A stretch of DNA of 64,000 nt from Polyangium mundeleinium (GTDB lineage Bacteria > Myxococcota_A > Polyangia > Polyangiales > Polyangiaceae): positions 1,302,001 to 1,366,000 of the forward strand of contig NZ_JAQNDO010000001.1 of assembly GCF_028369105.1 (NCBI RefSeq). The letters are read 5' to 3'. The position numbers and the translations under genes were made by a program. Under the pieces are notes generated by a model that saw only the letters and a list, made by a program, of their open reading frames with translations, was not told the DNA's origin and made no database searches. Below are positions 5,579-45,360 of the stretch, one piece after another (the stretch's first letter is position 1; each line of letters begins with the position of its first letter).

Positions 5579-5821
5579 AGCCGCTGCGCCTCGGGGGACG
5601 CGCTCGTCAATGTCCGACGGCCAGATCTGAAAACCGGCGTCTTGCGGACCCTCCCCGGACTCGATACGCCCAAAGCTGCGTTCGTGCCTCATGGCACCAT
5701 GGTCGACGTGGGCCGCGCGAAGACGGAAGCGGGCCAGACGTGGTACCACGTGCGGGCGGTCGTGAACGGTGTGGCCTACGAGGGGTGGATGCACGCGGAT
5801 ATCCTCGATCCGGTGCCCTGA
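5579..5821 (+). pseudogene. SH3-like domain remnant, no start codon
   Basis: After an in-frame TGA (5576–5578) this frame stays open for 80 codons and reads like a bacterial SH3 domain. It runs from ALVNVRRPDLKTGVLRTLPG to TWYHVRAVVNGVAYEGWMHA and ILDPVP, ending at TGA. The pattern of a G-x-V-L-R segment, then W-Y-x-V and G-W-x-x-A-D-I-L is typical of SH3_3-type cell-wall or surface domains. No ATG or GTG with a ribosome site begins it; the only Met is internal. It is most likely the 3' end of a gene whose front was lost in the adjacent repeat-rich stretch. Confidence 0.5.
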
Positions 5822-5917
5822 GCTGCCGTGTCGCCCCAAGATTGTGTTTTGTCTCCCAAACTGTTTTGCGCTACGTCACGCGATCCGAGTTCACGGTACG
5901 TTTTTCCTTCCCGCACC

Positions 5918-7267: not shown

Positions 7268-9540
7268 AGGAGGCCCGCTCCGCGCTGAAGGAGGCGCTCT
7301 ACAACCTCGGCGTCGAGGACGTGCCGCGCGCACGGGAGCGGCGCGCGGCGCGCGAGGAGGCCGAGCGAGAAGCGGAGGCGTTGCGCCGGCGTATCAAGCA
7401 GCTCGCGCCGTCGGGACTCGACGAGCTTGCCGTCCGCGCGTCGCAGCGGGCCGAAGAGCACAAGCGCCTGGAAGGGCGTCTCGGCGCGGCCCTGAAGGCG
7501 CAGGAGGAGCTGGATCGTATCCGGTCCGATCTCGCGCGGCACACGATCGACGCGGACGCGATCCAGGCGTTGCGCGCCGCCGAGAAGCTGGTCGCGCTCG
7601 CGAGGGAGTCGCGGGGGGCGATGGGCACGGAGCTTCTGCTCCGGGCCAACTCCGAGGTCACCGTGCAGGTGGGGGACGAAGAGCCGCCCGTGACCCTGTC
7701 GTCCGGGGAGACGATTGCGCGCCAGGTCACGCGTCCGACGACGGTTTCCATCGGCAACCTGGCCGAGGTCCTCCTCACGCCGCGCGGGGAGGAGCTCGTC
7801 CGGGCCACGGCGCGCCTGGAGAACGCCGAGCGCGCGTTTGCCTCGGCGCTGCGCGTGCACGCGGTCGAGTCGCTGGAGCAGGCGGAGGTGATGGCGCAGG
7901 CCCGCGACGCGATTGCGAGAAAAAAAGCGACCTTCGAACAGCGCCTCGCCGAGGCCGCGCCGCGTGGGATCGATCCGCTGCGCGTCGAGGTGGACCGGAT
8001 GCAGCGCGAAACCCAGGCCGCCGAGACCGAGCTCGCCGCGGCGCGGGAGGCGCTCACCCGGCAGGCCGAGGTCGAGGTCGTGCTCGGCGCCAATCCCGTG
8101 AGCGCACCGAAATTCAAGCGGCTCCTCGAGCTCGAAGAGGCCCTCCTCGCACGCGAGGCGACGGTCACGATGAAGTCAGCGCGTCTGCGTGGTTTGTCCG
8201 GCCTGCTCGCGGGGCGGGAAGTCGTCGTGGGGGAGCCGGTGCCGATCGAAGAAACCGCCGGCGGGCCGGGGTGGACGGTGATCCCCGGGGAATCGAGCGA
8301 ATGGGTGAGGCTCGAAGAGGCCGAGCGTGCGCTCGACGAGGCATTCCAGCGGGCGCAGGTTGCGGACGTGAGCGCTGCGAGAGCGCGGTGGGCGGCGGCT
8401 CGGGACCTCGTCGGCAAACGAGAGCGGCTCGTCGAAACGCTGAAGCTCGTGGCCCCGGACGGCCTCGAAGCATTACGCGGGCGCAAACGCGCGCTCGAAG
8501 CGGCCGCGACAACCGAGGGGCCCGCGGGGGAATCGGAGATGCCCGTCGAGGCGCTCCGGCAACGGATCGAGGCGCTGGAGGCCGAAGTGTCGCCGCTGGA
8601 GGCCACGCAGGCGGCCGCGAAAGAGCAAGCGATTGCGGCCGAAAAGCTCGAGCATGACTGCATGCACGAGGTCGGGGAACTCCGCGGCCGGTGGAGAGAG
8701 CTCGTCACCCAGCACGAGAGGCGCGCCGGAGAGCTCGTCGTATCCCGGAGGGAAGCGCCTGACGCGGTGCTCGAAGCGAAGTTCGAAGAGGCCCGTCGCG
8801 AGCTCGAAGAATCCAGGTCGAATGTCGAACGTGCGTCCACGGAGCTCGCGGCCGCGACGCCGGAGCTCCTCCGGGATGAAGAGGGGCGCGCGCAGTCTGC
8901 CCTGGATTCACACGAGGGACACCTGCGCAAATTGCGGGACGAGGTGAGCAGCTTGCAGGCGCTGCTCGCCAAAGCCGCGGCCGAGGGCCGGTTCGAGGAC
9001 CTCAGCGAAGCGAAGGCAGAACAAGCCGCCGCCGCCGAGGCGCTCACGCGGGTGGAGCGGCAGGCACGCGCGGCGCGGATCCTCTGGGATTTGACGGAGG
9101 AGGCCTATACCGAGGCCCAACGTATCTTCCTCGGGCCCGTGCTGAACGAGGCCGCGCCTTATCTGAACAACCTGAGGCCCGGGACCGAGATCCGGATGAC
9201 GCAGGATCTTCGGCTCGACAAGGTGGTTCGCCGCGGGATGGAGGAGGACTTCGGGCAGCTCTCGGGCGGAACACGAGAGCAACTCTCGGTCATCGTGCGA
9301 ATCGCGCTCGCGCGGGTGTTCGCCAAGGATCGGCGGCCGCTTCCGCTGATCCTCGACGATACGATGGGCTGGACGGACGACGCGCGGTTCCTCTCGATGG
9401 TGCGGATCCTGCGGGATGCGGCCAAGGAGCTGCAGGTCATTCTCCTCACGTGCCATGGGACACGGTTCGACCGGCTGCAGCCGGAGTATCGCGTGGATCT
9501 CGATGAACTTCGTCGCAATGCCGCCGCAGAAATGATCTGA
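6937..9540 (+). CDS. SMC/SbcC-like ATPase, N-terminus with Walker A missing
   Basis: From about residue 35 this frame encodes long Glu/Arg/Ala-rich coiled coils. They end in an ABC signature (QLSGGTREQ, about 774–782), Walker B (LILDDTMGW, about 804) and an H-loop-like strand (ILLTCHG). This is the C-terminal half of an SMC/RecN/SbcC-type head. No P-loop GxxGxGKS exists near the start, and the first 31 codons overlap the phosphoesterase gene in another frame. A GTG at 7030 is an alternative start but also gives no Walker A. The coiled coil is interrupted by three related units, each a beta-rich insert followed by a helix ending LAP(D)GLDEL-like. A deletion probably removed the stop of the upstream gene and the ATP-binding end of this one. 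Confidence 0.72.
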   Translation: MDRPRRGAPPGGPARQTDRGHGARAAAALSAVDQARTSGGLDARSYEDIEELSGRVETLRAKLSIEGTRIQARSDGRVWIGTGKGMEVPELGNVELVPAQPGLGQAVVLVKEARSALKEALYNLGVEDVPRARERRAAREEAEREAEALRRRIKQLAPSGLDELAVRASQRAEEHKRLEGRLGAALKAQEELDRIRSDLARHTIDADAIQALRAAEKLVALARESRGAMGTELLLRANSEVTVQVGDEEPPVTLSSGETIARQVTRPTTVSIGNLAEVLLTPRGEELVRATARLENAERAFASALRVHAVESLEQAEVMAQARDAIARKKATFEQRLAEAAPRGIDPLRVEVDRMQRETQAAETELAAAREALTRQAEVEVVLGANPVSAPKFKRLLELEEALLAREATVTMKSARLRGLSGLLAGREVVVGEPVPIEETAGGPGWTVIPGESSEWVRLEEAERALDEAFQRAQVADVSAARARWAAARDLVGKRERLVETLKLVAPDGLEALRGRKRALEAAATTEGPAGESEMPVEALRQRIEALEAEVSPLEATQAAAKEQAIAAEKLEHDCMHEVGELRGRWRELVTQHERRAGELVVSRREAPDAVLEAKFEEARRELEESRSNVERASTELAAATPELLRDEEGRAQSALDSHEGHLRKLRDEVSSLQALLAKAAAEGRFEDLSEAKAEQAAAAEALTRVERQARAARILWDLTEEAYTEAQRIFLGPVLNEAAPYLNNLRPGTEIRMTQDLRLDKVVRRGMEEDFGQLSGGTREQLSVIVRIALARVFAKDRRPLPLILDDTMGWTDDARFLSMVRILRDAAKELQVILLTCHGTRFDRLQPEYRVDLDELRRNAAAEMI

Positions 9541-9558
9541 GCCAGGGGAACCATCTCC

Positions 9559-12500
9559 ATGACCGGCGTCGCTTTCAAACAAGAAAAGCCCACCCCGATC
9601 CGCAATCTCGATACGGAGGCCATACGCCTCCCGCTCGAACGCGAGCTCGCTGCCCAGCTCCAGCATGAGCCCTTCGTGGCATCGATCCAAGGTTCCCTTG
9701 CATTGCCCGACCCTGCGGCGGTCCGCCGCAAGTTGATGGGGCAGTCGCTGCGCCTCAGCGAGGGAATGGCTCCCGAGCTCCACGCGAGCGCCAAGGAATG
9801 CCTGGGCGTCCTTGGCATCGAGCGTCCGGTCGAGATCTACCAGTCGGCGGGGATCGAGAATGCATCGATTCACCTCATCGAGGAGCCCATCCTCGTCGAG
9901 GTGCAGGGACGCATGATCACCTTGCTCGACCCAGGGAGCATGCGCGCCGTGCTCGGTCACGAGCTGGGGCATTACCTTGCACACGGACCGTGGACCCCGC
10001 TCGGGCAGGCGGGTCGAATGGCGAGCGTGCTTGCCGACGCGGAGGACGTACCCGAGCCCATCCAGAAATTGTCCAGCTCCTTGAGCATGGCGGGCGAGCT
10101 CACGGCCGACCGTTTTGGCTTGCTCGCGTGCCAGGATCTGCATGCGCTCCTCCGGCTCGAGATGATCAGCACCACGGGGCTCCCTGGCAATGCCCTGACG
10201 TGGGATACGGAAGCGTATCTGGCACAGTGCAAGGAGCTCATCGAGCAGTGCCTGCGCGAGGGATCCGGCACCCTGGGCGTCACCCATCCCGAGCACAACC
10301 TCCGCGCCTATGCGGCATGGCTCTTCAGCGAATCCGATCTTTATCGTTCGCTGACCGGTCGTGGCCCCGGTTCGCGCAGCATGGCCGACATCAACGCCGT
10401 GCTTGCCAAGGTCCTCGCGGTGCCGGGATTCGACACCAGCTATCACATGCTGGAGCCCCAGCCTGCCGAGCTTCATGCGTGCGCGCTCGCCAGCAGCGTC
10501 CTCGTGGCAGCCGCCGACGGGGAGATGGCAGATGCCGAGGCCGAGGCGATCGAGCGGGTGTTTGCTCCGCTCGTTTCGGAGTATGCGGCGTACTTCGACG
10601 TCGAGTTTGCTCGCCGGCGCTTCGGCGAGCTCGCGGGTTTGATGGCCTCTCTCGGGGCGGCGTCCCATCGCTCTCTTTTCGGCCTCCTGGCACATGTGAT
10701 CGGAGCGGATGGGGTCCTGGATCCGCGCGAAGTGAGTACGCTGCTGGCCATCGGGGATGCGATCGGCGCAGGCGCCTTGTTCCAGCGCCTGGCGGTTGTC
10801 CTCGTTCGCCGTTTTGGTTTGTCACCCGATGCGATTCCGCAGCCGGTGCTGGACGTTCCGCTCCCCCCACGCGCGAAGGAAGCGCAGAGCGCGCTCGACG
10901 CCTTTCTCGGTGCCATGGCGCGCCGTGGTGGAGGCGAGGCGACGCTTCGCCGTCTCTTGCGGCTCCTTGGCGCAAAAAGGAAAGGCTCGGAGCTCCTGCG
11001 CACCGTGCAGGAGGCGATCCAGCGCGCTGGGTTGCGGCCTGCGGAGGAAATCGCCTCTGTCGAGCTGGATACCGTGCTTCACCTGGAGGCACGGAGCGTC
11101 ACGCCGCCTCCTCCCACGGCATCGACGTCGTCGGTCGTCCCTGGTAGCCCCGAGAGCGTCGTCCTTCGCGGGATCGGCAAGTTGCGCGAGCAGCTCGTGT
11201 CGGGCGATGGCCGGAGCCCATCGGTCCGCCTGTACCAGGCTCGCCCCGGACGCGCTTTTGATCTCGAAACGCTCGAGCAAGTCTCGGTCGGTTTGTCGGA
11301 GCGGGTGCTCGCGCAGGTGCGCACCGGAGAGCGCGCGGTTCTCGTGAAAGCCGCGGAGGCGGGACGGCATGCAGGGGCAAACCAGGCGCTACGCGAGCTA
11401 TTGATGCTCGACCGGGAGCACAATGGGCGCCTGGAGGAAACGGGGGCAAACGATCTGGCCCTTGGGTATCCGTTCCTGATCGGACTCGCCGGCGGATACC
11501 TCGTGCGAGGACCGCTCGTCCTTTACCCCGTCGATCTCGAGCGTGACGATCGGGGGGCACGCAGCTTCGCCTTGAAGCCGCACAAGGACCAGCCGCCCAC
11601 GGCAAACCTCGCGCTTCTTCGGGTGCTGTTCACCAAAAAAGGGCTTCCCCTGCAGGACGACCTTGCGGCACGGCTCGATGAATTGGCTGCCGATCTGGCG
11701 CACGGGCCCGAGGCGCTGCTTGGCGAGCTCTCACGCCTTGGCATCAGCTCCAACAAACTGACGGGCGAGCTTTCCCCCCTCAAAGACCGACGCGAGGAGG
11801 TGCTGGGGCGACGCGATGACTTCCTCGAAGTCGAGGAGATTGCGGTCCTTGGGCTGTTTCCCCAGTCGAATTCGGACCTCCTCCAGGATTACGACGGTCT
11901 CCTCGCGGACCTGGCACGCGGCGACACCCCGACGGGCACATTGCTCGGCGGCGCCTTGGAGCTCTTACCGGCCGAGATGCGGGACAGGTTCGGGTCGAAT
12001 CTGACGCCGAGCCCCCCGCAGACCACGAGCGAGGAGAGTCTCGGTGTGCCCGTGATTGCGTCCGATCCGAGCCAGCGGCAGGTCCTCGCGCTCGCCCGGA
12101 CGAAGCGTGCGCTCGTGGTCGACGGGCCTCCAGGGACGGGCAAGAGCCAGGTCATCGTCAATCTCGTTGCGGATGCGATCGGGCGAGGCGAGCGGGTTGC
12201 GGTGGTCAGCGAGAAGCGGGCCGCACTCGATGTCGTGGCGCAACGCCTGCAGCAAACGGGGTTCGAGCATGCCGTTGCCCTCGTGCACGATGTGCAGGAG
12301 GATCGGAAACCGGTCTACCAGAAAATCGCGGCGCGTCTCGAAGCCGGGCAATCGTCGGATTTCGACACGGCGTCGGCCGCGCAGACCACGCAGGAGCTTG
12401 CAGCGTTGACACAGGTCTTCGATCGGCGTGCCGAGTTGCTCGGTCGAAAACTTCCAGGATGCTCGATGCGTGTCGGGCAGCTTCACGCGCTCGGCTCAGG

Positions 12501-34701: not shown

Positions 34702-36939
34702 TTACAGATTCACACTCCCAATCCGCAACTCCATCAACAGATTGTCGTTCCAGCGCGCCATCACCGGCGTGCTCCCCTCATTCCACTTCGAGACTTCATG
34801 CGCCTTGGCGGACGCCGGCCGCGCGGGTAGCTTCACTTCGGACCGCCCCGTCGCCTGCGCGACGAGCCGCCGCAGCCCCTCTTCCTGCCCGTAGAGAGAC
34901 CGCTGGCCCCGCGCTGCTCCGACGGCATAAATGCCCGTGCACACGCCGCCGACCATCGCCGCGTACACGGACACGCCCTTCAATTCGGTCCACCCCGTGC
35001 TCGCAGAGCCCGGCTCGCGTTCAAGAATCTCGTTCACCACGCTCACGGGCGCGCCGAGCAGCGCCACCTTGCCGAGTTCGCTGCTCGCCCACACCGCCGC
35101 CGCTTTCGCCTTCTCCTGGACCTCGCCGTCCCCCTCGCCGAGCCGTCGCGCGGAGGCAGCCAGCTTCGACTGGGACCTGAGCCAGCGGACCCGCGAGAGG
35201 AGATCGCCTGCGGGAATGCTCCGGGCGTCGAGCTCCTCGCAGAGCTTCCGCCGCGTCTTGTCGAGCGTAGCCTCGCGCTCGGGCGTGCTGTGTGCCGCCT
35301 TTGCAACTCTCGCCGCTCCGAAGCGGCAGGCATCCTCTGTACAAGCAGCGCCCTGCACGTCGAACACGCGCGCCTTGAGATCACCGATCTCCGGGACGTC
35401 CGAGAGCTCCGACGACCAGCGCTCGAGTAGCCCGGCGGCGTCCGCGGACCGGTTCGCCTGGAGGGCCGCCTCGATCGCTTCGATGCGTGCCCGCTGCGTG
35501 CGCGCCTTGGCATCGCCCGCATGACTGCCGTTTCGCGCAGCGATTTCGTCGAGCTTTTCGAGGCGCGCATCTCCTGAAAGCCGCTCGGCCTCGGCGAGCT
35601 CGAGCTCGTCGACGACATCCGAGACCTGCTTGGACGACTCGGTCGCCGTGAGCGCCTCCGCGGTGATCCGGGCTCGATCGAGGTCCCCCGTGGCGACCGC
35701 CTGCTGCACCTCCTTTGGGCTCGGCTTGCCGAAGTAACCCACCACGGGGCAGAGCAGGAAGGCGGCCGCGCTGATCCCTATCGCGGCGCGATCCACGACG
35801 CTCGCCGGCCAGAAACGGAAGCCGGGTCGAAGCGCGCGCAGCAGGCCTCCGACCGCGACGATGGCCGCGGCGATGCCGATCAACGACGCGAAGGCGATGA
35901 CTCGGTTGACGGACTGGAAATAGGTCGTCGGCCCGCTCATCGCCGTGATGAACCACGTGCCGCCGATCAACAGCAGGAACGACGTGATGCCCCAGAGGAT
36001 CAGCCGTCGGCGGATCGGCCGCACGGCCTTCGGCGTCGTGGCCCCGACCAGGTTCGCGCCCGACAGGACGACCGTCCCCTTCGTGCCGCACATCTCGTAC
36101 CGCACGTCGCGGCGAAGGACACCGAAGCGGAGAAACTGCTGCGCCTGGATCCGCTCGAGCCGGGGATCGATCGCGGGGGTTTGTCTTCGCAGAACCGCGT
36201 CATCGTCCGGCGTGAGCTCTCCTCCGGCGATGCTGCCCGCGCCCTCCACGGAGACGAACTGCGTGAAGGCTCCGAGGTCCGAAGGCCGCAGGAATCGCTC
36301 CTCGCGGAGCTGCCCGTGCGCCATCACGATCGGGCTGTCCGTCGAGTTCTGCACGACGACGCGTATGCTCTCCTGGTATGTCCACCACACGAGCTGCTGG
36401 CCGCTCCCCGCGCAGCCCGCGCACGTGACGGTGCCCTTCGACAGACACCCGCCGCAGCCCACGGTGCCGCCTCCGCGACAGATCGAGCAGTTGATGTACT
36501 TGCTCGACTTCTTGTAGTGCTTGAGCACACGCCCACTGCCGCCGCAGCCCCCGCAGCGCTGCTTGCCGCTGCCGCCGCATGCGGGGCACGCCGCGATGCC
36601 GCCGCCGCCGCACGGCGTGCAGCGGTCGACGTGCTCGGTACGCGTGCGCAGCTCCTCCATCGTCCCGCGGAACGGATCGAGCGTCGCCTCGTGGACCGGG
36701 CTCGTGCTGCGGCTCCTGCGCTCGTGCGTGGGGATGCGCTGCTGCACGAGGTCGCGACGGATCACCGTCGTCGCCACGCGCGTGATGAGCTCGTCACGCT
36801 CCTTCACCGACGTGATCAACGCATCGGGGTGTCGAGGAGCCCCGAACACTGTGCGGGCCCACGACGCGAACGCGGTACGCACGTTCACGTTCGCGCTTGC
36901 GTCGTCCGTCTCCTCGCCCCGATACGGAGTTGCGACCAT
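34702..36939 (-). CDS. Membrane protein with DnaJ-type zinc-finger repeats
   Basis: I choose the Met at 36939; longer starts would run under the divergent hxsA gene. The 745-residue protein has six CxxC motifs between residues 107 and 180 (CTPCGGGG, CPACGGSG, CGGCGGSG, CSICRGGG, CGGCLSKG, CAGCAGSG), the pattern of the DnaJ central zinc domain but without a J domain. A beta-rich region follows, then three membrane segments (about 312–334, 347–368, 386–403) and a long helical C-terminal region possibly made of TPR-like repeats. The domain order suggests a chaperone-like or scaffold protein in the inner membrane. It leads the operon ending in the HNH lipoprotein and is divergent from hxsA. Confidence 0.72.
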   Translation of the reverse strand: MVATPYRGEETDDASANVNVRTAFASWARTVFGAPRHPDALITSVKERDELITRVATTVIRRDLVQQRIPTHERRSRSTSPVHEATLDPFRGTMEELRTRTEHVDRCTPCGGGGIAACPACGGSGKQRCGGCGGSGRVLKHYKKSSKYINCSICRGGGTVGCGGCLSKGTVTCAGCAGSGQQLVWWTYQESIRVVVQNSTDSPIVMAHGQLREERFLRPSDLGAFTQFVSVEGAGSIAGGELTPDDDAVLRRQTPAIDPRLERIQAQQFLRFGVLRRDVRYEMCGTKGTVVLSGANLVGATTPKAVRPIRRRLILWGITSFLLLIGGTWFITAMSGPTTYFQSVNRVIAFASLIGIAAAIVAVGGLLRALRPGFRFWPASVVDRAAIGISAAAFLLCPVVGYFGKPSPKEVQQAVATGDLDRARITAEALTATESSKQVSDVVDELELAEAERLSGDARLEKLDEIAARNGSHAGDAKARTQRARIEAIEAALQANRSADAAGLLERWSSELSDVPEIGDLKARVFDVQGAACTEDACRFGAARVAKAAHSTPEREATLDKTRRKLCEELDARSIPAGDLLSRVRWLRSQSKLAASARRLGEGDGEVQEKAKAAAVWASSELGKVALLGAPVSVVNEILEREPGSASTGWTELKGVSVYAAMVGGVCTGIYAVGAARGQRSLYGQEEGLRRLVAQATGRSEVKLPARPASAKAHEVSKWNEGSTPVMARWNDNLLMELRIGSVNL

Positions 36940-37084
36940 CTTGGCGAGCGTACCTTCGTCCCGACGGGCCGTGTAGAGCTTCCAGACATCCCCGCGGAGC
37001 GGAAAAAGTGCGCCAAAGAGCCCTCCTCGGGTCGGACAAACAGGTCGCCTTGACGCACACGGAGGATCCGGACGAGAATGCGAC

Positions 37085-37600
37085 GTGGGCAACCCGCGTC
37101 CTCCTCTCGTCGCGCTGGGAACAGCCATCATGGCCGTCGTGCAGGGAGCGTTGCCTTCCGACGCGCTCGTCCCGAGCGCGCTCGCCCAGTCCCCACGGAA
37201 GCCCGACGACGACGGCGAGGACGACTCACTGCTGCTCACGGCCCCGAGCATCGAGCAGCCGATGTACCTCGCGCACCGGTCGCACAGCTCACATCGCTCG
37301 CACGCGTCGCACCGCAGCCACTACTCCGGGGGCTATGGCTCGGGCTCCCGAGGTTCCGACAGCGAAGAAGCGCCGGCCCCGCCGCCTCCTCCCCCCAAGC
37401 CGGCCACCGTGTCGCTCGTGGCCTATCCCGGGGGCCGGATCTTCGTGGACGGGAAGCTCGTGGGAACCGACTCCACGGCGACGCTGACGCTCACGCCCGG
37501 ACGACACGAGGTCCGCGTGGAGAACAAGTTCGTCGGCGACACGAACACGAGCATCGACGTGTCCGAGGGGCAGACCGGCATGATCGTGGTCCAGTGGTAG
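37085..37600 (+). CDS. hxsA: His-Xaa-Ser repeat protein HxsA with PEGA domain
   Basis: The open frame starts at a GTG (37085); an in-frame ATG at 37130 is possible. A weak signal region ends around SALAQ (residue 35). Residues 64–81 are six consecutive His-Xaa-Ser triplets (HRS HSS HRS HAS HRS HYS) followed by GGYGSGSRG, the hallmark of the substrate of the His-Xaa-Ser system. After a Pro-rich hinge (97–106) the C-terminus is a PEGA domain (YPGGRIFVDGKLVGTDS, then LTPGRHEVRVEN), a beta-fold used for surface or envelope binding. I infer that the HxS region is modified by the two downstream radical SAM enzymes and then exported. It is first of four tightly packed genes. Confidence 0.85.
   Translation: MGNPRPPLVALGTAIMAVVQGALPSDALVPSALAQSPRKPDDDGEDDSLLLTAPSIEQPMYLAHRSHSSHRSHASHRSHYSGGYGSGSRGSDSEEAPAPPPPPPKPATVSLVAYPGGRIFVDGKLVGTDSTATLTLTPGRHEVRVENKFVGDTNTSIDVSEGQTGMIVVQW
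37274..37327 (+). repeat. Six His-Xaa-Ser codon triplets in hxsA
   Basis: A 54-base stretch encoding six H-x-S units in phase. His codons are CAC/CAT and Ser codons TCG/AGC/TCC mixed, so the DNA repeat is imperfect while the peptide repeat is exact. This suggests selection at the protein level. Confidence 0.85.
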
Positions 37601-37604
37601 GCGG

Positions 37605-37955
37605 ATGAGGGCCGAAGATCCCGGTGCGGACGCTCCCTTCGTGTTTCGGGACGGATGCATCGGCGTCACCGTCGATGTCCGCGCCTACCGCCTCTCGGCC
37701 GTACAGAAGACCGCCTACAGGCTGGCCGCGAAGTGCACCGCCATCATCGGTGAGGTCCGGGAGCACTCGCTCGTCGTGACGCTCACCTTCGCGCCCACGA
37801 CCGGCGAGCGCGAGGCCCTCGAGACGGCGAGGCTCTTCTTCCAGGAGCTCCTCGACCAGGAGCTCCGTGAGAAAGTTGGAGAACAAACAGCCTCGCTCCG
37901 CGCGCTGATCCTCGCTCACGCCTTCTCGCGCACGAGCCTCCCTCCCCGCGGGTGA
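37605..37955 (+). CDS. hxsD: His-Xaa-Ser system protein HxsD
   Basis: 116 residues beginning four bases after hxsA. The body (VTVDVRAYRLSAVQKTAYRL, SLVVTLTF, ETARLFFQELLDQELREKVG) matches the small companion HxsD protein of His-Xaa-Ser loci: two strands flanking a helix and ending in a long helix with the conserved QELLDQELRE-like stretch. It has no catalytic motif and is thought to serve as a substrate-recognition or delivery partner, comparable with RRE-type proteins of RiPP pathways; that comparison is inference. It lies between the substrate gene and the maturases. Confidence 0.82.
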   Translation: MRAEDPGADAPFVFRDGCIGVTVDVRAYRLSAVQKTAYRLAAKCTAIIGEVREHSLVVTLTFAPTTGEREALETARLFFQELLDQELREKVGEQTASLRALILAHAFSRTSLPPRG

Positions 37956-37956
37956 C

Positions 37957-39408
37957 ATGGTGCGGGCGGTCTTCCATCCGAGGAGTGCCTACGCGCCGTC
38001 GGCGGGATATCGCCTGCTGCCCCTGCGCTTCGGTCGCCTCGACGAGCATGCGTACATCGTAACGAACGACGTCGGCGAGTACGTCCGCCTCGCGCGTGAC
38101 GAGCTCGTCGCGTTCCTCGAGCGGAGGCTCGATCCGAACACGAGCGTTTACAAGGCGCTGAAGTCGCGCCATTTCCTGTACGAAAACGATTCGTCCGTCG
38201 CCTTCGACTTGCTGGCGTTGAAATACAGGAGCCGAGCAGAACGCGTTGCTGCGTTTACGGGGCTCCACATCTTCGTCGTCACGTTGCGGTGTGATCATTC
38301 CTGCCAGTATTGCCAGGTCTCTAGACAATCGGAGGACAGTACCGCATTCGACATGACGGTCGAGCACGCCGACAAGGCGCTCGATCTCGTCTTCCGAAGC
38401 CCAAACGAGCACATCAAGATCGAGTTTCAGGGAGGCGAGCCGCTCCTCAACTTCCCGCTCGTCCGCCACATCGTGGAGCGCGCGCGAAAGCAAAACGAGG
38501 ACCACCGGCGCGACCTCCAGTTCGTCATCACGTCCAATCTTTCACGTCTGTCCGATGACGTATTGTCATTTTGCAAGGAGCACGGCGTGTACCTGTCGAC
38601 CTCGCTGGACGGTCCCGCCGATCTCCACGACGGCCAGCGGCCGACGCGCGGCGGTGGCAGCCATCGGAAAACGGTCGAAGGGATTCACAGGGTCCGCGAG
38701 GCGCTCGGGCCGGACCGGATATCGGCGCTCATGACGACGACGCCGAGGAGTTTGTCGCGCGTCGAGAAGATCATCGACGAGTACGTTCACCTCGGGTTCC
38801 ACGGCATCTTCTTGCGGAGCCTCAGCCCGTACGGATTCGCGGCGCGGAGCCTGGTCAAACGGTACGGCGTCGAAGACTGGCTCGACTTCTACAAGCGCGG
38901 GCTCTCGCACATCCTCCGGATCAATGCCGGGGGCTACTTTTTGCGCGAGGAGTTCACGACCATCCTGCTCCAGAAGATGTTCTCGCCTCTCAGCTCGGGA
39001 TACGTCGATCTCCAATCCCCCGCAGGAATCGGGATCGGGGCGCTCGTCTACAATTACGACGGTGCCGTGTACGCCTCGGACGAGGGCCGCATGCTGGCCG
39101 AGATGGGGGACCAGACCTTCCGATTGGGGCACCTGGATGAGCACAGCTACGAGGATCTCTTGACGTCCGAAGCGCTCCTCGTGCCGCTCGGCGAGACCAT
39201 CCTCGAGGGCATGCCCATGTGCGCCGACTGTCCCTTCCTGCCTTACTGCGGCGCCGATCCCGTGTTTCACAGGGCCACGCAGGGCGACGCCGTCGGGCAC
39301 AAGGCGTTCAGCGCATTCTGCACGAAGCAGATGGGCGTCCTGCGGCACGTGATCGGGCTCCTTGAGACCGACGCCGAGGCGCGAGACATCCTTCTCCGGT
39401 GGGTATGA
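37957..39408 (+). CDS. hxsB: His-Xaa-Ser system radical SAM maturase HxsB
   Basis: 483 residues, starting one base after the hxsD stop. The radical SAM cluster motif is LRCDHSCQYC (Cys112, 116, 119), followed by the SAM-binding FQGGEPLL. The C-terminus has a SPASM-like group (CADCPFLPYC; Cys422, 425, 431), pointing to at least one auxiliary iron–sulfur cluster. The N-terminal 90 residues (GYRLLPLRFGRLDEHAYIVT, YVRLARDELVAFL) match the HxsB family layout. It should act with HxsC on the His-Xaa-Ser region of HxsA; the exact chemistry is not visible in the sequence. Confidence 0.9.
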   Translation: MVRAVFHPRSAYAPSAGYRLLPLRFGRLDEHAYIVTNDVGEYVRLARDELVAFLERRLDPNTSVYKALKSRHFLYENDSSVAFDLLALKYRSRAERVAAFTGLHIFVVTLRCDHSCQYCQVSRQSEDSTAFDMTVEHADKALDLVFRSPNEHIKIEFQGGEPLLNFPLVRHIVERARKQNEDHRRDLQFVITSNLSRLSDDVLSFCKEHGVYLSTSLDGPADLHDGQRPTRGGGSHRKTVEGIHRVREALGPDRISALMTTTPRSLSRVEKIIDEYVHLGFHGIFLRSLSPYGFAARSLVKRYGVEDWLDFYKRGLSHILRINAGGYFLREEFTTILLQKMFSPLSSGYVDLQSPAGIGIGALVYNYDGAVYASDEGRMLAEMGDQTFRLGHLDEHSYEDLLTSEALLVPLGETILEGMPMCADCPFLPYCGADPVFHRATQGDAVGHKAFSAFCTKQMGVLRHVIGLLETDAEARDILLRWV

Positions 39409-39412
39409 GTCC

Positions 39413-40564
39413 ATGCTGGTGAAGCTCTCCGCGCGTGGTCTACGAGCATTGTCGGAAACCTCGCGCAGGCCGTTCGTCGCGCGAATCTCGGAGAATCCCG
39501 CGCTCCCGGAGGCGTATCGATCGAGCGATCTGTTGCTTCTGTCCGAGGAGGCGTCCGAGCTCCCGCCGGGGTTCCGAGGATACCTCTTGCGCCAGCCACG
39601 ACCCTCAGACCGAAAGGACACGTATCACCTCGGCGTCGACCACGATTACCTGCGGGAGGGGGATGTCGTGCGGATCGACCCCGTGCGGGGTACGGTCTCG
39701 GCCCTCTACCGAGCGAACTCCCGGTCGAACACGTTCCTCGTGACCGAGCGCTGCGACAACTTCTGCGTGATGTGTTCCCAGCCGCCCAAGGACCACGACG
39801 ATGGGTGGCTCGTGGACGATATCGAGCGGGCCATCCCCTTGATTTCGCCCGAAGCCTCGGAGATCGGTGTCACGGGCGGCGAGCCTGCTCTCCTCGGCGA
39901 GCGTCTCGTACGGCTCCTCGTGCTGCTCCGGGAGCACCTCCCCCGCACGAGTGTGCATGTCCTCTCGAATGGTCGAAGGTTCGCCGACGCCAGTTTTGCG
40001 CGCGCTGTCGGTGATGTGAGGCACCCTGACCTGATGATCGGCATTCCGCTCTACTCGGATTTGGCCGAGGAACACGACTACGTCGTCCAGGCCGAAGGAG
40101 CCTTCGACCAAACGGTGCGAGGAATCTTGAACCTGAAGCGGCGGCGCGTCCGCGTCGAGCTTCGGTTCGTAATCCACCGGGAGACGGTCGAGAGGATGGC
40201 GGAGTTCGCGCGCTTCGTCGCGAGGAACTTAACCTTTTTGGATCACGTCGCGCTCATGGGCCTCGAGCACGTGGGGTTCGCGAAGACCAATCTCGAGGCG
40301 CTGTGGATCGATCCGCTCGATTACCAAGGGCCACTACGGGAAGCCGTCTTGACTTTGGAACGTGCGGGGATGGCGACCTCGATCTATAACCATCAGCTCT
40401 GCGTGCTCGATCCGACGCTGCACCGGTTCGCCCGGAAGAGCATCTCGGATTGGAAGAATGTGTACGTCGAGATATGCCAGACGTGTCGCCGGAAGGAGGA
40501 GTGCGGTGGATTCTTCACATCCTCTGCGGTGAAGCGTAGTAGGGGGATCTCTCCGTATGGCTGA
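39413..40564 (+). CDS. hxsC: His-Xaa-Ser system radical SAM maturase HxsC
   Basis: The ATG at 39413, four bases after the hxsB stop, begins a 383-residue protein; an in-frame ATG further upstream would lie inside hxsB. Cluster motif TERCDNFCVMC (Cys114, 118, 121) is followed by GVTGGEPALL. A C-terminal group CQTCRRKEECGG could bind a second cluster. The N-terminal 100 residues resemble the HxsC extension seen in paired His-Xaa-Ser maturases. With hxsA, hxsD and hxsB it completes the four-gene set. Downstream DNA is a graveyard of gene remnants, so the operon probably ends here. Confidence 0.9.
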   Translation: MLVKLSARGLRALSETSRRPFVARISENPALPEAYRSSDLLLLSEEASELPPGFRGYLLRQPRPSDRKDTYHLGVDHDYLREGDVVRIDPVRGTVSALYRANSRSNTFLVTERCDNFCVMCSQPPKDHDDGWLVDDIERAIPLISPEASEIGVTGGEPALLGERLVRLLVLLREHLPRTSVHVLSNGRRFADASFARAVGDVRHPDLMIGIPLYSDLAEEHDYVVQAEGAFDQTVRGILNLKRRRVRVELRFVIHRETVERMAEFARFVARNLTFLDHVALMGLEHVGFAKTNLEALWIDPLDYQGPLREAVLTLERAGMATSIYNHQLCVLDPTLHRFARKSISDWKNVYVEICQTCRRKEECGGFFTSSAVKRSRGISPYG

Positions 40565-40628: not shown

Positions 40629-40900
40629 ACGCGCTCAACGAAGACGCCGAACTTGCGTACGCCGAGGTCGATCCTCTGCCCGAGGTCTTCCCCCTCATCG
40701 AACAATACCGGCGGTGCATTTGCCTTCGTCGCAGCTTCGAGCCCTCCGCGAAAGAACTCGCGCATCCCCTCTGGCCCAGCGCCCAGCAGGTGCTTGTCCA
40801 CCGTCTCGTGCCAGACGGACCCCAAAACCGTAGCAATTGGCTGGAATGACCTCTGGACACGGTCAATGTACTTCAACCGTATCTCCACGCCCAGCCTCGT
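40629..40900 (-). pseudogene. PD-(D/E)XK nuclease-family fragment
   Basis: On the minus strand the frame reads GVEIRLKYIDRVQRSFQPIA, then TVLGSVWHETVDKHLLG and PPVLFDEGEDLGQRIDLG. This is the N-terminal helical part of Cas4/RecB-like PD-(D/E)XK proteins, with the conserved GxxxH turn. It then runs into antisense of hxsC, so the catalytic D…ExK core is missing. No start codon is evident at its upstream end, where it joins the IS66 remnant. It is a truncated relic rather than a gene. Confidence 0.5.
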
Positions 40901-40914
40901 CTTGCTTGACGGCC

Positions 40915-41215
40915 GTCGCAACGGCACCGATATTTCTGCCGCTTGTGCTTCTTGAACTCGAAGCGTCGCGGGACGACGTCGACCTCCTCCGATTCCTCGA
41001 ATTGCCCTTCCCACGCCTCAAGCGCGCCGCCGCACGAGCTGCAGACCTTATCGGCCTCGTCGAGCCCGTGCACGAGCTCCACAATCAGCAACGACGGCTG
41101 CGCCTTCGGTCCGTGGCCCTTCTGTGGCGGCTTCGGCGATGCGTCGTGCTCGACTCTGCCGCGACGCTCCGACTTCTCGCCGACGAGCAGCCGATTCTTC
41201 TGAGCAATCCAACAG
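40915..41215 (-). mobile_element. IS66-family transposase remnant
   Basis: The minus strand encodes LLVGEKSERRGRVEHDASPK, then PPQKGHGPKAQPSLLIVELV, the zinc-finger part HGLDEADKVCSSCGGALEAW, and EESEEVDVVPRRF with KHKRQKYRCRC. This is the N-terminal/zinc-finger region of IS66-type TnpC transposases. The DDE catalytic domain, the accessory genes and the terminal inverted repeats are absent, so the element is dead. The break coincides with the start of the PD-(D/E)XK remnant. Confidence 0.7.
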
Positions 41216-41335
41216 GCGAAAACCCGGCAGCCGGCAATTTCGGCGGCGCCGCGCCCTTGGCCCAGCCGTACAACGTCCGCCAGTGCAAGCCGATCTCGGG
41301 GCCGGAGGACGGCAAAGCGGAAATCCACGCCCGCG

Positions 41336-41526
41336 CCGACCACCTCCCCCGAGCGCCTCGCACACTTGCGCGACGTGCAGCGGAAGGCCGTGAAGGCCAT
41401 GGAGGAGATGCCTGCCGAGCTTTTCCCAGGTACGCATGCGCGTTGGCATCGAGGGCAAGTCGCACAAGGAGGTCGCCGAGGAGCTCGGGATCTCGAAAGA
41501 CTTGGCGAAGAAGCGAAACGGCTCAT
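41336..41526 (+). pseudogene. ECF sigma factor region 4 remnant, frameshifted
   Basis: One plus-strand frame gives SPERLAHLRDVQRKAVKAME, then EMPAELF. After a frame change the next gives MRVGIEGKSHKEVAEELGIS, then KDLAKKR, the helix-turn-helix that recognises the -35 element in RNA polymerase sigma factors. The two parts would be continuous if one or two bases were added or removed near 41430. Only the C-terminal end of the gene is left. Confidence 0.55.
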
Positions 41527-41530
41527 CCGA

Positions 41531-42475
41531 TCACGGCTTGCAGCTCGCAGGGTAGTTCACGTACGTCTCGCCGAGCGGGGTGAGCTCGCCGTCGGCGCCC
41601 AGCAGATCGATGCTTGGCGTGAAGTCGCTCCGCCCGGTGAACCAGGCATAACGTACGACCCTGGGATTGGCCTCGAGGATCGCGAGCGCGGCCTTCATGT
41701 AGGCTTGCTGCGCGGGCTCGGAGGTGTCGCTCCCATCGAGGCACGAGAACTCCGTCAGCCAGAGCTTTTGCGTGTACTTGCTCTCGAATTGCTGGAGGTA
41801 CCAGGTGAGCGCACTACCGTCGCACGCGTACCAGTGCATAGCGATGTAGTCAATTTTGCAGGCCGGGCAGGCGGCGAAGAACTGGTCGAGCCACTCGAAT
41901 GGGTCCGCCACGTTGCAGGTGCCCCCGCAGAAGTTGACAGCGGGCGACACGATCGCGAGGTCGTGCTGCTTCGCGAAGTCCTCGATCTGAGGCCAGAGCG
42001 CGGCCGCCTGCGTCGGTGTGAGGTTCGCCTGCGAGCCGAAATTGGGCTCGTTGAAGCCGAGGAGATAACGCGCGTCGGGCGGGACCTCCGCGGAAAGCCC
42101 CGAGAGGGATGCCTCACCCCACGCCATGGGCACGTACTCCACGCCAAGCCCGGCGTAGGCGGCAGCGACGTCGGTGTTGTCCGGTTTCGCCGCCCAGTTG
42201 TACCACCAGCCGATCCCCTTCGAGAGCGCGGTGAGGTCGGCCACGGAGTGGTAGCCGTACGCGATTCCGCGCTTGCACGCGGCCGGGGCAGCGCCGCCCG
42301 TGCTCGACGACGACGATGCGCCGCCAGACGCGGTTTCGCCGCTCGAACTCGAGGCATCCGCGCCGGAGCCCCCCGTGCCCGTGTGCAGCACCTCGACGCT
42401 GCTCGAGCCGCAGGCGGTGAGGGCCGCCGCGAGGCCGATGGACACGCGAGCGAGGAGACGCGGAGGGTGGTGCAT
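41531..42475 (-). CDS. GH128-type (Asl1-like) beta-1,3-glucanase lipoprotein
   Basis: 314 residues: signal with lipobox LTAC (Cys22), a Ser/Gly/Thr linker to about residue 65, then a barrel starting CKRGIAYGYHS. Family hallmarks are WWYNW (90–94), VEYVPMAWG, FNEPN with acid/base Glu143, IDYIAMHWY and the nucleophile in WLTEF (Glu242), followed by VVRYAWFTGR. GH128 enzymes cut beta-1,3-glucan such as curdlan or fungal wall glucan. A close paralogue is at 48097–49008. Cys pairs (FCGGTCN, CPACK) suggest a disulfide-stabilised secreted protein. It stands alone, next to the decayed region. Confidence 0.88.
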   Translation of the reverse strand: MHHPPRLLARVSIGLAAALTACGSSSVEVLHTGTGGSGADASSSSGETASGGASSSSSTGGAAPAACKRGIAYGYHSVADLTALSKGIGWWYNWAAKPDNTDVAAAYAGLGVEYVPMAWGEASLSGLSAEVPPDARYLLGFNEPNFGSQANLTPTQAAALWPQIEDFAKQHDLAIVSPAVNFCGGTCNVADPFEWLDQFFAACPACKIDYIAMHWYACDGSALTWYLQQFESKYTQKLWLTEFSCLDGSDTSEPAQQAYMKAALAILEANPRVVRYAWFTGRSDFTPSIDLLGADGELTPLGETYVNYPASCKP

Positions 42476-42511: not shown

Positions 42512-43567
42512 TCAGCGAAGGGTGAAGGAGAGCCCCGCTTCGATTTTGCCCCCGACGCCCTGGATCGCGGTCACCGCGGCGCCGTCGTCGGTGGCCGCGA
42601 CCGTGTGCAGCGCGACGACCGCGCCGACGCCGAGGGTCCAGGCGATCGGGCCGGTCCGCGCCCAGCCGCGGACCGTCGTGCCGGCGAGACCGGTCCAGCG
42701 TGATCCGTCGCTCGCCGTCGCGGAGCCCGAGGCCGATCCGACGAGGTGGACGCGCACCGCGTCCGCGTTCGCCTCGAGCCGCACGCCGAACGGCGCGTCG
42801 GGAGGCAGGAACGCGAAGGCCAACCCGAGGCCCGGGCCAAGGGTGTCCGCGCGCGCCGAGCCGTGCAGGGATGCGCGCGGGAGGCCGAAATCGGCGGCGA
42901 AACGAAGCTCCACGAGGAAGCGCGACAGACACCAGGCGCCGACCCACGCCGCGCCTCCGAACCCCACGCGGTGGCCGAAGAAGTCGACCGCGGTCCCGAC
43001 GACGCCGATCTCGACGAGCGGCGGCCGCGCGCGCGTGGGGAGAGCCGGGGCCGCGATCGCGCGCAGGACGGGCGGCGGCGGCGTGACGACCGGCGCCGGC
43101 GCGTCGGCGATCGTCAGCTCCATCCAGCTCGCGCGGAGCAGCTCGTCGGTCGACGCCGCGACGGCGAGAGGCCGGCCGTTCGCGGGGATTCGTCCCAGAT
43201 CGATGGTGCGCTCGACGCGCTTGTCCATGATCAGATCGCCGACCCGGATGGTCGCGAGGAAAGCACCACTCGCCTGGTGCTCGACGTGAAGGGTGATCCG
43301 AGCGATGGGGCGCGCACCGGAGGCCGGGGGACCCGGGGCCGCGCTCGGGACGACGACGACGTCGATATCGCGCGCGCCGAGCTCGGCGCGGAGATGCCGC
43401 TCCAGGGCCGTGCCGATGATGCGATCCGGAGGCTCGACCTCCAGCACCAGCTCGACCACCGCGCGACCACTCCCGGCCTGCGGGGGCGCGGCCTCGGCGC
43501 GGGCCGAGAGCGCGCCGAACGCGAGCAGCAAAGCGCCGGCGATGCGGGAACGAAGTCCTGTCCTCAT
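42512..43567 (-). CDS. Exported protein downstream of FecR gene, unknown function
   Basis: 351 residues with a cleavable-looking signal (LLLAFGALSARAEA). The first half has alternating strands typical of a small periplasmic domain (RAVVELVLEVEPPD, ARITLHVEHQ). The second half, from about residue 195, contains repeated amphipathic strands with Gly turns (VGFGGAAWVGAW, LGLAFAFLPP, VGGKIEAGLSFTLR) and an aromatic/basic last residue pair, consistent with a beta-barrel outer-membrane domain. The ATG overlaps the upstream stop (ATGA). It is the third gene of a sigma–FecR–effector operon and may be the product that system monitors or supplies. Confidence 0.72.
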   Translation of the reverse strand: MRTGLRSRIAGALLLAFGALSARAEAAPPQAGSGRAVVELVLEVEPPDRIIGTALERHLRAELGARDIDVVVVPSAAPGPPASGARPIARITLHVEHQASGAFLATIRVGDLIMDKRVERTIDLGRIPANGRPLAVAASTDELLRASWMELTIADAPAPVVTPPPPVLRAIAAPALPTRARPPLVEIGVVGTAVDFFGHRVGFGGAAWVGAWCLSRFLVELRFAADFGLPRASLHGSARADTLGPGLGLAFAFLPPDAPFGVRLEANADAVRVHLVGSASGSATASDGSRWTGLAGTTVRGWARTGPIAWTLGVGAVVALHTVAATDDGAAVTAIQGVGGKIEAGLSFTLR

Positions 43568-44685
43568 GGGCCTCCGCAGAGCCTTGCCACGCGCCCGGCA
43601 TGCAGGCTCCGCGGGTAGCGCGCACGGAACGCGTCGCGCGCGCGCGTGCAAGCCTCCCGGTCGCCGAGGTTCGCCAAAGCCTCGATGCGGGCCGCCTCCG
43701 CGTCCTCGCGAAACGGATCGCTCGGACGCTCGAGGACGGCTTCGAACGCCGCGGCCGCGCCCTGCGGATCGCGCAGCGATCCGAGGCGGATTCGCCCGAG
43801 CTCGTACGCGGCGAGCCCGGCGCGCGGATCGTCGGGGAAGCGCCGGTAGAACCGCTCGAAGTCGGCGGCCGCGTCCGCGTGGCGTCCGGCGAGCCGCGCC
43901 GCGGTCGCGCGATCGAAAAGCGCCTCGGGCGAGAGCGCGCGCGCCGATCGAGCGGACACCGAAGGCGCCGCCGTGCTGGCCGGCGCGCTCGGCGCCGAGG
44001 CCGACGCGCTCGGCGCCGCCGGCTCGCCACTGCCCCGCGGGGCGAGCGGCGGCCCCATCGTGAGCGGCTCGGGGCCGCCGCTCTTCCAATCCTGCCCCGG
44101 CTTGAGCGTCGCGAGGACCGATTGCGCCGCGTCGCGCACCTCGACCGCGCCGCGCTCGACGCGCACTTCGACCACCTCTCGATCCGCTTCCGGGCGCACG
44201 TCGACCGCGAAGCGCGTGCCTCGATCCTCCACCTCGACGTCTCCCGCGGCGACGACGAAGCGGCGCTCCTCGCGGTGCACGATGTCGCAGATCACGCTGC
44301 CGCGCTCGAGGCGCAGGCGGACCTCGTGGGCGGTCGCGGAGAGCACGTGCAGGCGCGTCGCCGCGGCCAGGCTCAAGATGCTCCCGTCGGGCAGCGACAC
44401 CTCCTGAACCGCCGCCCCCGTGTCGATCACGAGCCCCGTCATCACGGGGCTCGACGGCGGCCTTCGCCACACACCAAGGAAGAGCGCCACGGCCACGAGC
44501 GCAGCGGCCAGGATCGGGGCTGCCCGCCAGCGCATCGCGCGGCGCACCGCGGAACGCGGGCTCTCCGATCCCCGGAGCCGCGCTCGCTCGGCGTCCGCGA
44601 TGGCCGACCACATCCGCGCGATGCGCGCCTCACTCAGCGCCGGGCTCACGAAGTCCGCGATGCGGCGACGCGACACCGATCTCAT
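43564..44685 (-). CDS. FecR-domain anti-sigma/signal protein with TPR tail
   Basis: 373 residues: an N-terminal cytoplasmic segment of about 55 residues, one membrane helix (about 57–73), a FecR domain (VSLPDGSILSLAAATRLHVL, VEVEDRGTRFAVDVR, VEVRVERGAVEVRD) and a Pro/Ser/Ala hinge. TPR-like repeats follow from about residue 260 (LFDRATAARLAGRHADAAAD; FYRRFPDDPRAGLAAYELGR). It should hold the co-encoded ECF sigma factor inactive and relay an envelope signal. The start overlaps the sigma factor stop as ATGA, giving strict coupling. Confidence 0.88.
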   Translation of the reverse strand: MRSVSRRRIADFVSPALSEARIARMWSAIADAERARLRGSESPRSAVRRAMRWRAAPILAAALVAVALFLGVWRRPPSSPVMTGLVIDTGAAVQEVSLPDGSILSLAAATRLHVLSATAHEVRLRLERGSVICDIVHREERRFVVAAGDVEVEDRGTRFAVDVRPEADREVVEVRVERGAVEVRDAAQSVLATLKPGQDWKSGGPEPLTMGPPLAPRGSGEPAAPSASASAPSAPASTAAPSVSARSARALSPEALFDRATAARLAGRHADAAADFERFYRRFPDDPRAGLAAYELGRIRLGSLRDPQGAAAAFEAVLERPSDPFREDAEAARIEALANLGDREACTRARDAFRARYPRSLHAGRVARLCGGP

Positions 44686-45263
44686 CGCCCCTCCTCCCCG
44701 CGCGAACGCGAAACGTCGAGCAGGCCCTCCGCGCGGACCAGCGCGCGCTTGACGGTGGCGAGCGACCACCCGGTCTGCACGACAATCTCCTCCAGCGAGA
44801 GCTCCTCGACCCGACGCAGGATCAGCACGACGCGTTCCCTCACGGGCAGCTTGGCGATGAGGCCGTAGACCGCCACGAGCTCGGCGGCAACGTCCGGGGG
44901 CGCCGTCGACGCGATGAGCGTCTCCAGGTGCACCGGCTCGCCGCGCAGGAGCCCCAGGCGCGCCAGCAGCCGCCGGCGTCGGATGGTCGCGATTGTGACA
45001 CGGGTCACGATCGACGAGAGCCACGCCGCGAACGCCTGGGGCCGCTCGAGCTTGTGGAGCGCGCCGAAAGCCTGGGCGAAGCTCTCCTGCACGATGTCCT
45101 CGAGCTCCTCGTCGCGCCCGAGCAGTCGGAACGAGAGCCCGCTCACCATCCCCACATACCGGCGAAACAGCGCCTCTTTCGCCGGCTCGTCCCCTTCGAG
45201 CGCAGCCGTGACGAGCGCCGCGTCGCTCCGCCGCGGGTCCAGTCTCGTGACGGGCTCGGCCAT
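44682..45263 (-). CDS. ECF-family RNA polymerase sigma factor
   Basis: Taking the Met at 45263 gives 193 residues. Region 2 is clear (EALFRRYVGMVSGLSFRLLG, then EDIVQESFAQAFGALHKLER) and region 4 ends in a helix-turn-helix (LSLEEIVVQTGWSLATVKRA). A longer in-frame start 45 bases upstream cannot be excluded. It is first of three overlapping genes with FecR and an exported protein. Such sigma factors usually transcribe their own operon, but I could not find a convincing autoregulated promoter in the 97-base gap to the next gene. Confidence 0.9.
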   Translation of the reverse strand: MAEPVTRLDPRRSDAALVTAALEGDEPAKEALFRRYVGMVSGLSFRLLGRDEELEDIVQESFAQAFGALHKLERPQAFAAWLSSIVTRVTIATIRRRRLLARLGLLRGEPVHLETLIASTAPPDVAAELVAVYGLIAKLPVRERVVLILRRVEELSLEEIVVQTGWSLATVKRALVRAEGLLDVSRSRGEEGR

Positions 45264-45360
45264 GGTGGGTCCACGAGCTAAGTAGCTCGACCGCACAAAA
45301 CGGCTCACCCGGCGCGCGATTTTTCCGCGTTCACTGGCCGTGTGTGGCGGATTCCATCGT

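Follow-up and report, generated by a model that had tools for sequence, protein, structure and literature searches.

A His-Xaa-Ser cassette with a PEGA-bearing predicted substrate protein

The stretch analysed here, a 64,000-nucleotide segment (the window) of the 13.25-Mb genome of the soil bacterium Polyangium mundeleinium, contains a His-Xaa-Ser (Hxs) cassette of four genes, hxsA, hxsD, hxsB and hxsC, separated by 4, 1 and 4 bases, respectively (Table 1). The founding paper on Hxs systems is reportedly that of Haft and Basu from 2011. The initial annotation had described the cassette as a complete operon; its four genes were confirmed, but a fifth one, which is likewise conserved, is encoded on the opposite strand and here bears the placeholder name X, had been overlooked. 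HxsD, HxsB and HxsC exceed the cut-offs of the NCBIfam profiles TIGR03976 (64.5 bits, cut-off 50), TIGR03978 (603 bits, cut-off 370) and TIGR03977 (395.1 bits, cut-off 267.9), and the His-Xaa-Ser repeat protein that characterizes an Hxs system is encoded beside the maturases, with six tandem triplets. No other run of at least four HxS triplets exists in the six reading frames of the window, and none was obtained in 200 dinucleotide shuffles. The GTG start of hxsA is backed by an alignment of orthologues, and its signal-like leader was called by eye. For hxsC, we use an ATG start; a longer open reading frame from a TTG at 39362 would overlap hxsB.

Table 1. Features of the Hxs cassette and the adjoining gene X in the window.
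Feature	Position	Strand	Description
hxsA	37085..37600	+	GTG start, 171 aa; exported-looking leader (~aa 1-35), (HxS)6, Pro-rich linker, C-terminal PEGA
H-x-S array	37274..37327	+	HRSHSSHRSHASHRSHYS; six tandem triplets HRS-HSS-HRS-HAS-HRS-HYS; predicted modification site
PEGA domain of HxsA	37400..37597	+	X-linked PEGA subfamily
hxsD	37605..37955	+	Small partner protein; predicted ferredoxin-like alpha/beta fold, long C-terminal helix
hxsB	37957..39408	+	Radical SAM maturase; C112, C116, C119; C-terminal Cys group C422, C425, C431, C455
hxsC	39413..40564	+	Second radical SAM maturase; C114, C118, C121; C-terminal Cys C330, C355, C358, C364
Gene X	34702..36939	-	745 aa; predicted membrane partner of the PEGA domain
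X-hxsA divergent intergenic stretch	36940..37084		145 bp; both promoters likely here

The two radical S-adenosylmethionine (SAM) proteins noticed in the initial annotation show a conserved cysteine pattern, with the CX3CX2C motif and four C-terminal cysteines being invariant in 36 of 36 HxsB and 35 of 35 HxsC sequences, the latter count excluding one partial HxsC (L182; G and L numbers denote the genomes and loci of our survey). The C-terminal group of HxsB is presumably of the SPASM type, and the closest named relative of the protein is found in Polyangium sp. 15x6 (97%). For HxsD, a role as a winged-helix recognition element, as used by ribosomally synthesized and post-translationally modified peptide (RiPP) systems, was considered and rejected: its predicted model (predicted local distance difference test, pLDDT, 87.3) displays a beta-alpha-beta-beta arrangement with a long helix and is ferredoxin-like. 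No PDB chain was prominent among the matches of this model (best Foldseek E 8.3e-3, VIA Z 7.8), and the predicted fold is compatible with leader binding without being evidence for it.

HxsA reaches 51.8 bits against the equivalog profile TIGR03979 (cut-off 121.65), with the match limited to residues 30-108, and it is therefore classed as a variant HxsA rather than a TIGR03979 equivalog. It also remains below the cut-offs of the HxsA2 (29.8 of 48 bits), HxsA3 (27.3 of 65 bits) and HxsA4 (23 of 55 bits) profiles. Its residues 115-164 narrowly pass the gathering cut-off of the Pfam family PEGA (PF08308; 21.2 versus 20.8 bits), as had been proposed, and a PEGA match at E<=0.5 was obtained for all ten aligned HxsA proteins, including that of the window (best E 5.3e-5).

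Gene X accompanies PEGA-HxsA

Among 317 genomes of the class, 81 contain a match to HxsB at E<=1e-90. Eleven of them harbor the window type (63-100% identity); the remaining matches share 34-41% identity and include second copies in four of these eleven genomes. One window-type locus (G008) is truncated by a contig end, and each of the ten readable loci encodes a PEGA-fused HxsA. An eleventh PEGA-HxsA was identified in G013, on a short contig that holds hxsC-hxsA-X and stops inside hxsC, leaving hxsB out of view. The HxS run, whose conservation in the orthologues of the PEGA protein the initial annotation had made decisive, is retained in all eleven PEGA-HxsA proteins, that of the window included, and comprises four (L125) to seven (L122) triplets. 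Within the class, the eleven loci come from four families (f1, f6, f22 and f29), and an HxsA profile search of the window's own family returned eight full-length copies in 108 genomes, all of them among the eleven. At L125 (G099), a second, broken-looking group of HxsA-leader and X pieces lies downstream of the intact cassette (~8914-9721).

An all-against-all comparison of the loci revealed X as one further gene common to all that were readable there. It adjoins the gene for PEGA-HxsA in 11 of 11 loci, with the two genes being divergent in five (86-152 bases between them) and co-directional in six (-7 to 51 bases; the distance at L056 is approximate, with the start of X not settled). The pair is situated either 5' of hxsD or 3' of hxsC, i.e. 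at either end of the cassette, and this varying order argues against a merely inherited, frozen neighbourhood. Within ~6 kb around the eleven loci compared, no further widely common gene was detected besides the hxs genes and X, and hence no common protease or transporter.

X is predicted to consist of a DnaJ/BSD2-like CxxCxGxG zinc domain, three membrane helices (313-331, 347-365 and 385-403), TPR-like helices and a C-terminal alpha/beta domain. Fourteen cysteines are invariant in ten X proteins, 12 of them within repeats at 107-176, and a profile of these ten sequences finds the cysteine-rich domain of DnaJ (1exk, E 5.2e-5) and BSD2. Both have the CxxCxGxG repeats in common with X, whereas the additional domains of X, together with its TPR-like helices and three predicted membrane helices, set it apart. 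Pfam reports the DnaJ cysteine-rich domain (PF00684) in one of the ten proteins, as a weak match (E 0.054), and lists no J domain for X. Three hydrophobic stretches are present in all ten proteins, with most basic residues located ahead of the first stretch and in the segment that joins the second to the third, suggesting a topology with the N-terminus inside and the C-terminus outside. A known enzyme function for X was sought and not adopted, with Pfam assigning the window protein TPR_19 alone, below the cut-off; across the ten X proteins, the Pfam matches were scattered and weak (GRXCR1-2_C in four, best E 0.0015), and we drew no reading from them.

A profile built from X matched 40 of the 317 genomes at E<=1e-5 (three candidates scored per genome). 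The ten source genomes score 982-1178 bits, which is high by construction, and are followed by G013 (760 bits) and G015 (623 bits). In G297 and G296, where X is gapped, the longest stretch scores 338 and 321 bits, respectively, and the remaining matches are partial (184 bits at most). Full-length X is thus found in the ten source genomes, G013 and G015, and in G296 and G297 with gaps. It was not found at the 35 loci with second-type HxsB (L058-L092), 19 of which contain a repeat of at least four HxS triplets, mostly HGS.

X-PEGA fusions link the PEGA subfamily to X

Two genomes encode single proteins in which X is followed by PEGA, G015 and, with a shortened zinc region, G296. Neither belongs to the 81 HxsB-matching genomes, and no HxsB, HxsC or HxsD was found on their examined stretches. 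The contig of G297 ends within X, and a PEGA frame unlinked to X opens another contig of that genome. When seven chosen genomes were searched with the PEGA domains of G015 and the window, the PEGA of HxsA or X ranked first in six and the unlinked frame in G297; all top matches reached E 3.4e-8 or better, compared with 1e-4 or worse for the next-best PEGA domains. The fused domains stay below the Pfam cut-off (14.2 bits in G015, no match in G296), and they are recognized as PEGA through the HxsA profile and an alignment of 12 sequences that has 12 invariant columns. The structure predicted for the G015 fusion (pLDDT 88.6) comprises the zinc domain, three long helices, the TPR-like helices, the alpha/beta domain and PEGA. 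Its zinc domain matches BSD2 (6ekb; Z 7.3, root-mean-square deviation 2.0 over 54 residues, 35% identity) and its PEGA domain matches 6hif_Y (Z 9.2). The TPR-like helices likewise gave usable structure matches, with the alpha/beta domain (~631-765) giving matches at Z 6.8 and lower only, from which we drew no reading.

A tree was computed for 13 X proteins, including that of G013 and omitting that of G005 as a near copy of the window X. In it, a single branch with 100/100 support separates ten Hxs-linked proteins from the two fusions and the protein of G297. The tree is unrooted, and we therefore read no direction between fusion and split. The PEGA subfamily of HxsA is thus tied to X, which adjoins it at all 11 loci and is fused to it in G015 and G296. 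The initial annotation had proposed that PEGA tethers the product to an envelope polymer or protein; this is supported in kind by a different domain at the same place in other HxsA proteins (see below), and the tie to X narrows the probable target.

HxsA layouts in other lineages

Outside the myxobacteria, 27 loci have a readable HxsA. Nineteen of these proteins end in a bare HxS tail, and eight carry a domain-sized C-terminal stretch. The four of these eight that were scanned from Pseudomonadota all pass TIGR03979 and show PG_binding_1 behind the array; two from a search of Acidobacteriota gave no match in a Pfam scan, and one of them passes HxsA2. Another of the eight (L173, Pseudomonadota) looks by eye like one of the scanned proteins. 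Our survey of HxsA C-termini, a comparison suggested in the initial annotation, thus found PEGA at all eleven loci and PG_binding_1 in four proteins from Pseudomonadota. The arrangement of array, linker and C-terminal domain is hence a known layout; as far as seen, the undescribed parts are X and the PEGA domain, whose fusion to HxsA the initial annotation had not expected.

Compared with TIGR03979-type systems, the window shares the leader, the (HxS)5-6 array, the linker, a C-terminal surface-type domain and adjacent HxsB and HxsC relatives, but it differs in having PEGA instead of PG_binding_1, an HxsA below the cut-off and an adjacent X. HxsA2 systems (NF038296; Pseudomonas L042 and the Nostoc plasmid locus L184) have a similar leader and HxS array and the order hxsA-hxsD-hxsB-hxsC; unlike in the window, the HxS run of L042 and L184 is C-terminal with no domain behind it, and X is absent. 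The HxsA of L176 passes the HxsA2 cut-off, yet has a C-terminal domain. An HxsA4 locus in the same genome as the window, which holds the second-type copy of HxsB (L071, G000:C1:13006000-13021000; HxsA4 111.8 bits, cut-off 55), likewise encodes an HxsB over the cut-off and HxS-type repeats. However, its array is of the form (HGS)n ending in GSW, no signal-like leader was seen by eye, and there is no X. One further radical SAM protein tested from L071 is nearest to HxsC4, below the cut-offs of both HxsC and HxsC4. Two loci contain two hxsA genes beside one maturase set, one for a bare tail and one for a domain-bearing protein, namely L122 (G276; 5588-5836 and 8919-9461) and L176. The last of the eight proteins with a domain-sized stretch, encoded on a Calothrix plasmid (L186, AP018291.1, 7821-8552) and annotated as hypothetical, has a long C-terminal part after the array.

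The prevalence of bare tails resembling a RiPP core raises the idea that the HxS stretch of the window protein is excised and leaves the cell as a peptide natural product, with PEGA acting as a follower. We consider this improbable, given that PEGA is retained at all 11 loci and that no protease or transporter common to them turned up within ~6 kb (genes farther away were not examined).

The main rival to docking on X is a direct association of PEGA with peptidoglycan or another envelope polymer, as is thought for PG_binding_1, with X being a neighbour with a parallel role. The position of PG_binding_1 in the four Pseudomonadota proteins fits this idea, and one survey counts PEGA among peptidoglycan-associating domains (PMC7159879). 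The same PEGA subfamily, however, occurs in fusions with X, and X adjoins PEGA-HxsA at every one of the eleven loci, making this explanation rather unlikely in our view. Otherwise, the literature searched yielded passing mentions of PEGA only and no account of its binding partner.

Surrounding genes and plasmid-borne relatives

Just 3' of hxsC, and convergent to it, lies a frame with an IS66 transposase zinc-finger domain (40873-41526, minus strand). Beyond the cassette follow genes for a Glyco_hydro_cc glycosyl hydrolase (41531-42475, minus strand) and for an ECF-type sigma factor and a FecR/TPR protein (43564-45308, minus strand). In a plasmid collection, relatives of HxsB (E<=1e-60) occur in 329 of 72,556 records, of which 305 are from Klebsiella and 263 are predicted to be conjugative. 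The eight Klebsiella plasmid proteins among the matches listed share ~31% identity.

Proposed docking of a carrier protein on X

We propose, at somewhat short of an even chance, that the cassette acts on a carrier protein, such that the array of HxsA is modified by HxsB, HxsC and HxsD, HxsA is exported and its PEGA domain docks on X. In this scheme, the substrate would be a carrier protein and would not be set free as a peptide. The (HxS)6 array would be modified by HxsB and HxsC with the assistance of HxsD, probably by cross-linking its His and Ser residues, and most likely, with the type of bond being uncertain, by joining each His (i) to the Ser at i+2 in small rings, in the style of triceptides. 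HxsA would then leave the cytosol by means of its signal-like leader. As suggested by the fusions, the adjacency of the genes and the charge pattern, X may expose its zinc domain to the cytosol, whereas its TPR-like and C-terminal domains would lie outside, with PEGA docking on the outer side. The inner membrane would thereby bear on its outer face a stiff array rich in histidine, which perhaps, though this is weakly inferred, serves metal binding or envelope contacts. Metal binding is a guess; according to PMC10206099, histidine cross-links such as those of noursin are able to bind copper.

The proposed chemistry draws on triceptides (HaaB, YhhB, MscB), RiPPs with three-residue cyclophanes in which radical SAM/SPASM enzymes join residues i and i+2. 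According to PMC11002830, these enzymes include cases with His, forming His C2-Cbeta(i+2) bonds, and MscB forms Phe-Cbeta(Ser). With a Ser at i+2 from each His, HxsA has a spacing that fits such rings. The window system differs from triceptides by two radical SAM enzymes plus HxsD, six tandem triplets and a domain-bearing predicted substrate. Alternatively, the radical SAM pair could act on X, PEGA or another protein, leaving HxS as a plain metal-binding stretch, a scenario compatible with the fact that the literature searched contained no chemistry of the Hxs system. We regard it as very improbable, because the array is common to the HxsA proteins beside these HxsB whatever follows it, although the proteins were picked by that array.

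Several observations weigh against the docked-carrier scheme. HxsB falls far below the cut-offs of the cyclophane maturase profiles YhhB (69.3 of 445 bits), GrrM/OscB (53.2 of 310) and FxsB (51.2 of 370); its top profiles outside Hxs, themselves far below cut-off, are the ranthipeptide maturase PapB (108.9 of 340) and nif11 (95.5). The profiles thus do not favour cyclophanes, and another bond is possible, a point that slightly lowered our confidence in the scheme. Outside the myxobacteria, no X was detected at 28 distinct Hxs loci (29 were inspected, of which L047 and L183 represent one contig, and some are cut short). Conversely, X is present in G015, G296 and G297, where no window-type HxsB was found, indicating that it is not a dedicated Hxs part. 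Moreover, one of the two HxsA proteins of G276 lacks PEGA and ends in a bare HxS tail. Five of the ten X proteins show a further hydrophobic stretch in their C-terminal part (658-676 in the window X), which we take for beta structure, since the model draws strands there. The G015 fusion model has a predicted template modelling score of 0.45, such that the placement of its domains relative to each other is unreliable. Finally, the chemistry, export and docking of HxsA are all inferred from sequence.

Implications for Hxs systems

The literature searched, in which coverage of subscription journals is thin, contained no account of the function of Hxs systems, and a published account may exist; PMC9062424 and PMC8446631 mention the system in passing. 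It is conceivable, albeit somewhat doubtful, that Hxs systems are in general protein-anchoring systems, in which exported carriers bear a stiffened histidine array and the anchor is swapped between lineages (peptidoglycan-binding domains, PEGA with X, or others), with the myxobacterial array sitting on an X complex that is able to exist without Hxs. A substrate domain shared with one specific membrane protein would give an Hxs system an initial candidate partner and site of action that can be tested, and the X-PEGA fusions point to a binding assay that is independent of the chemistry.

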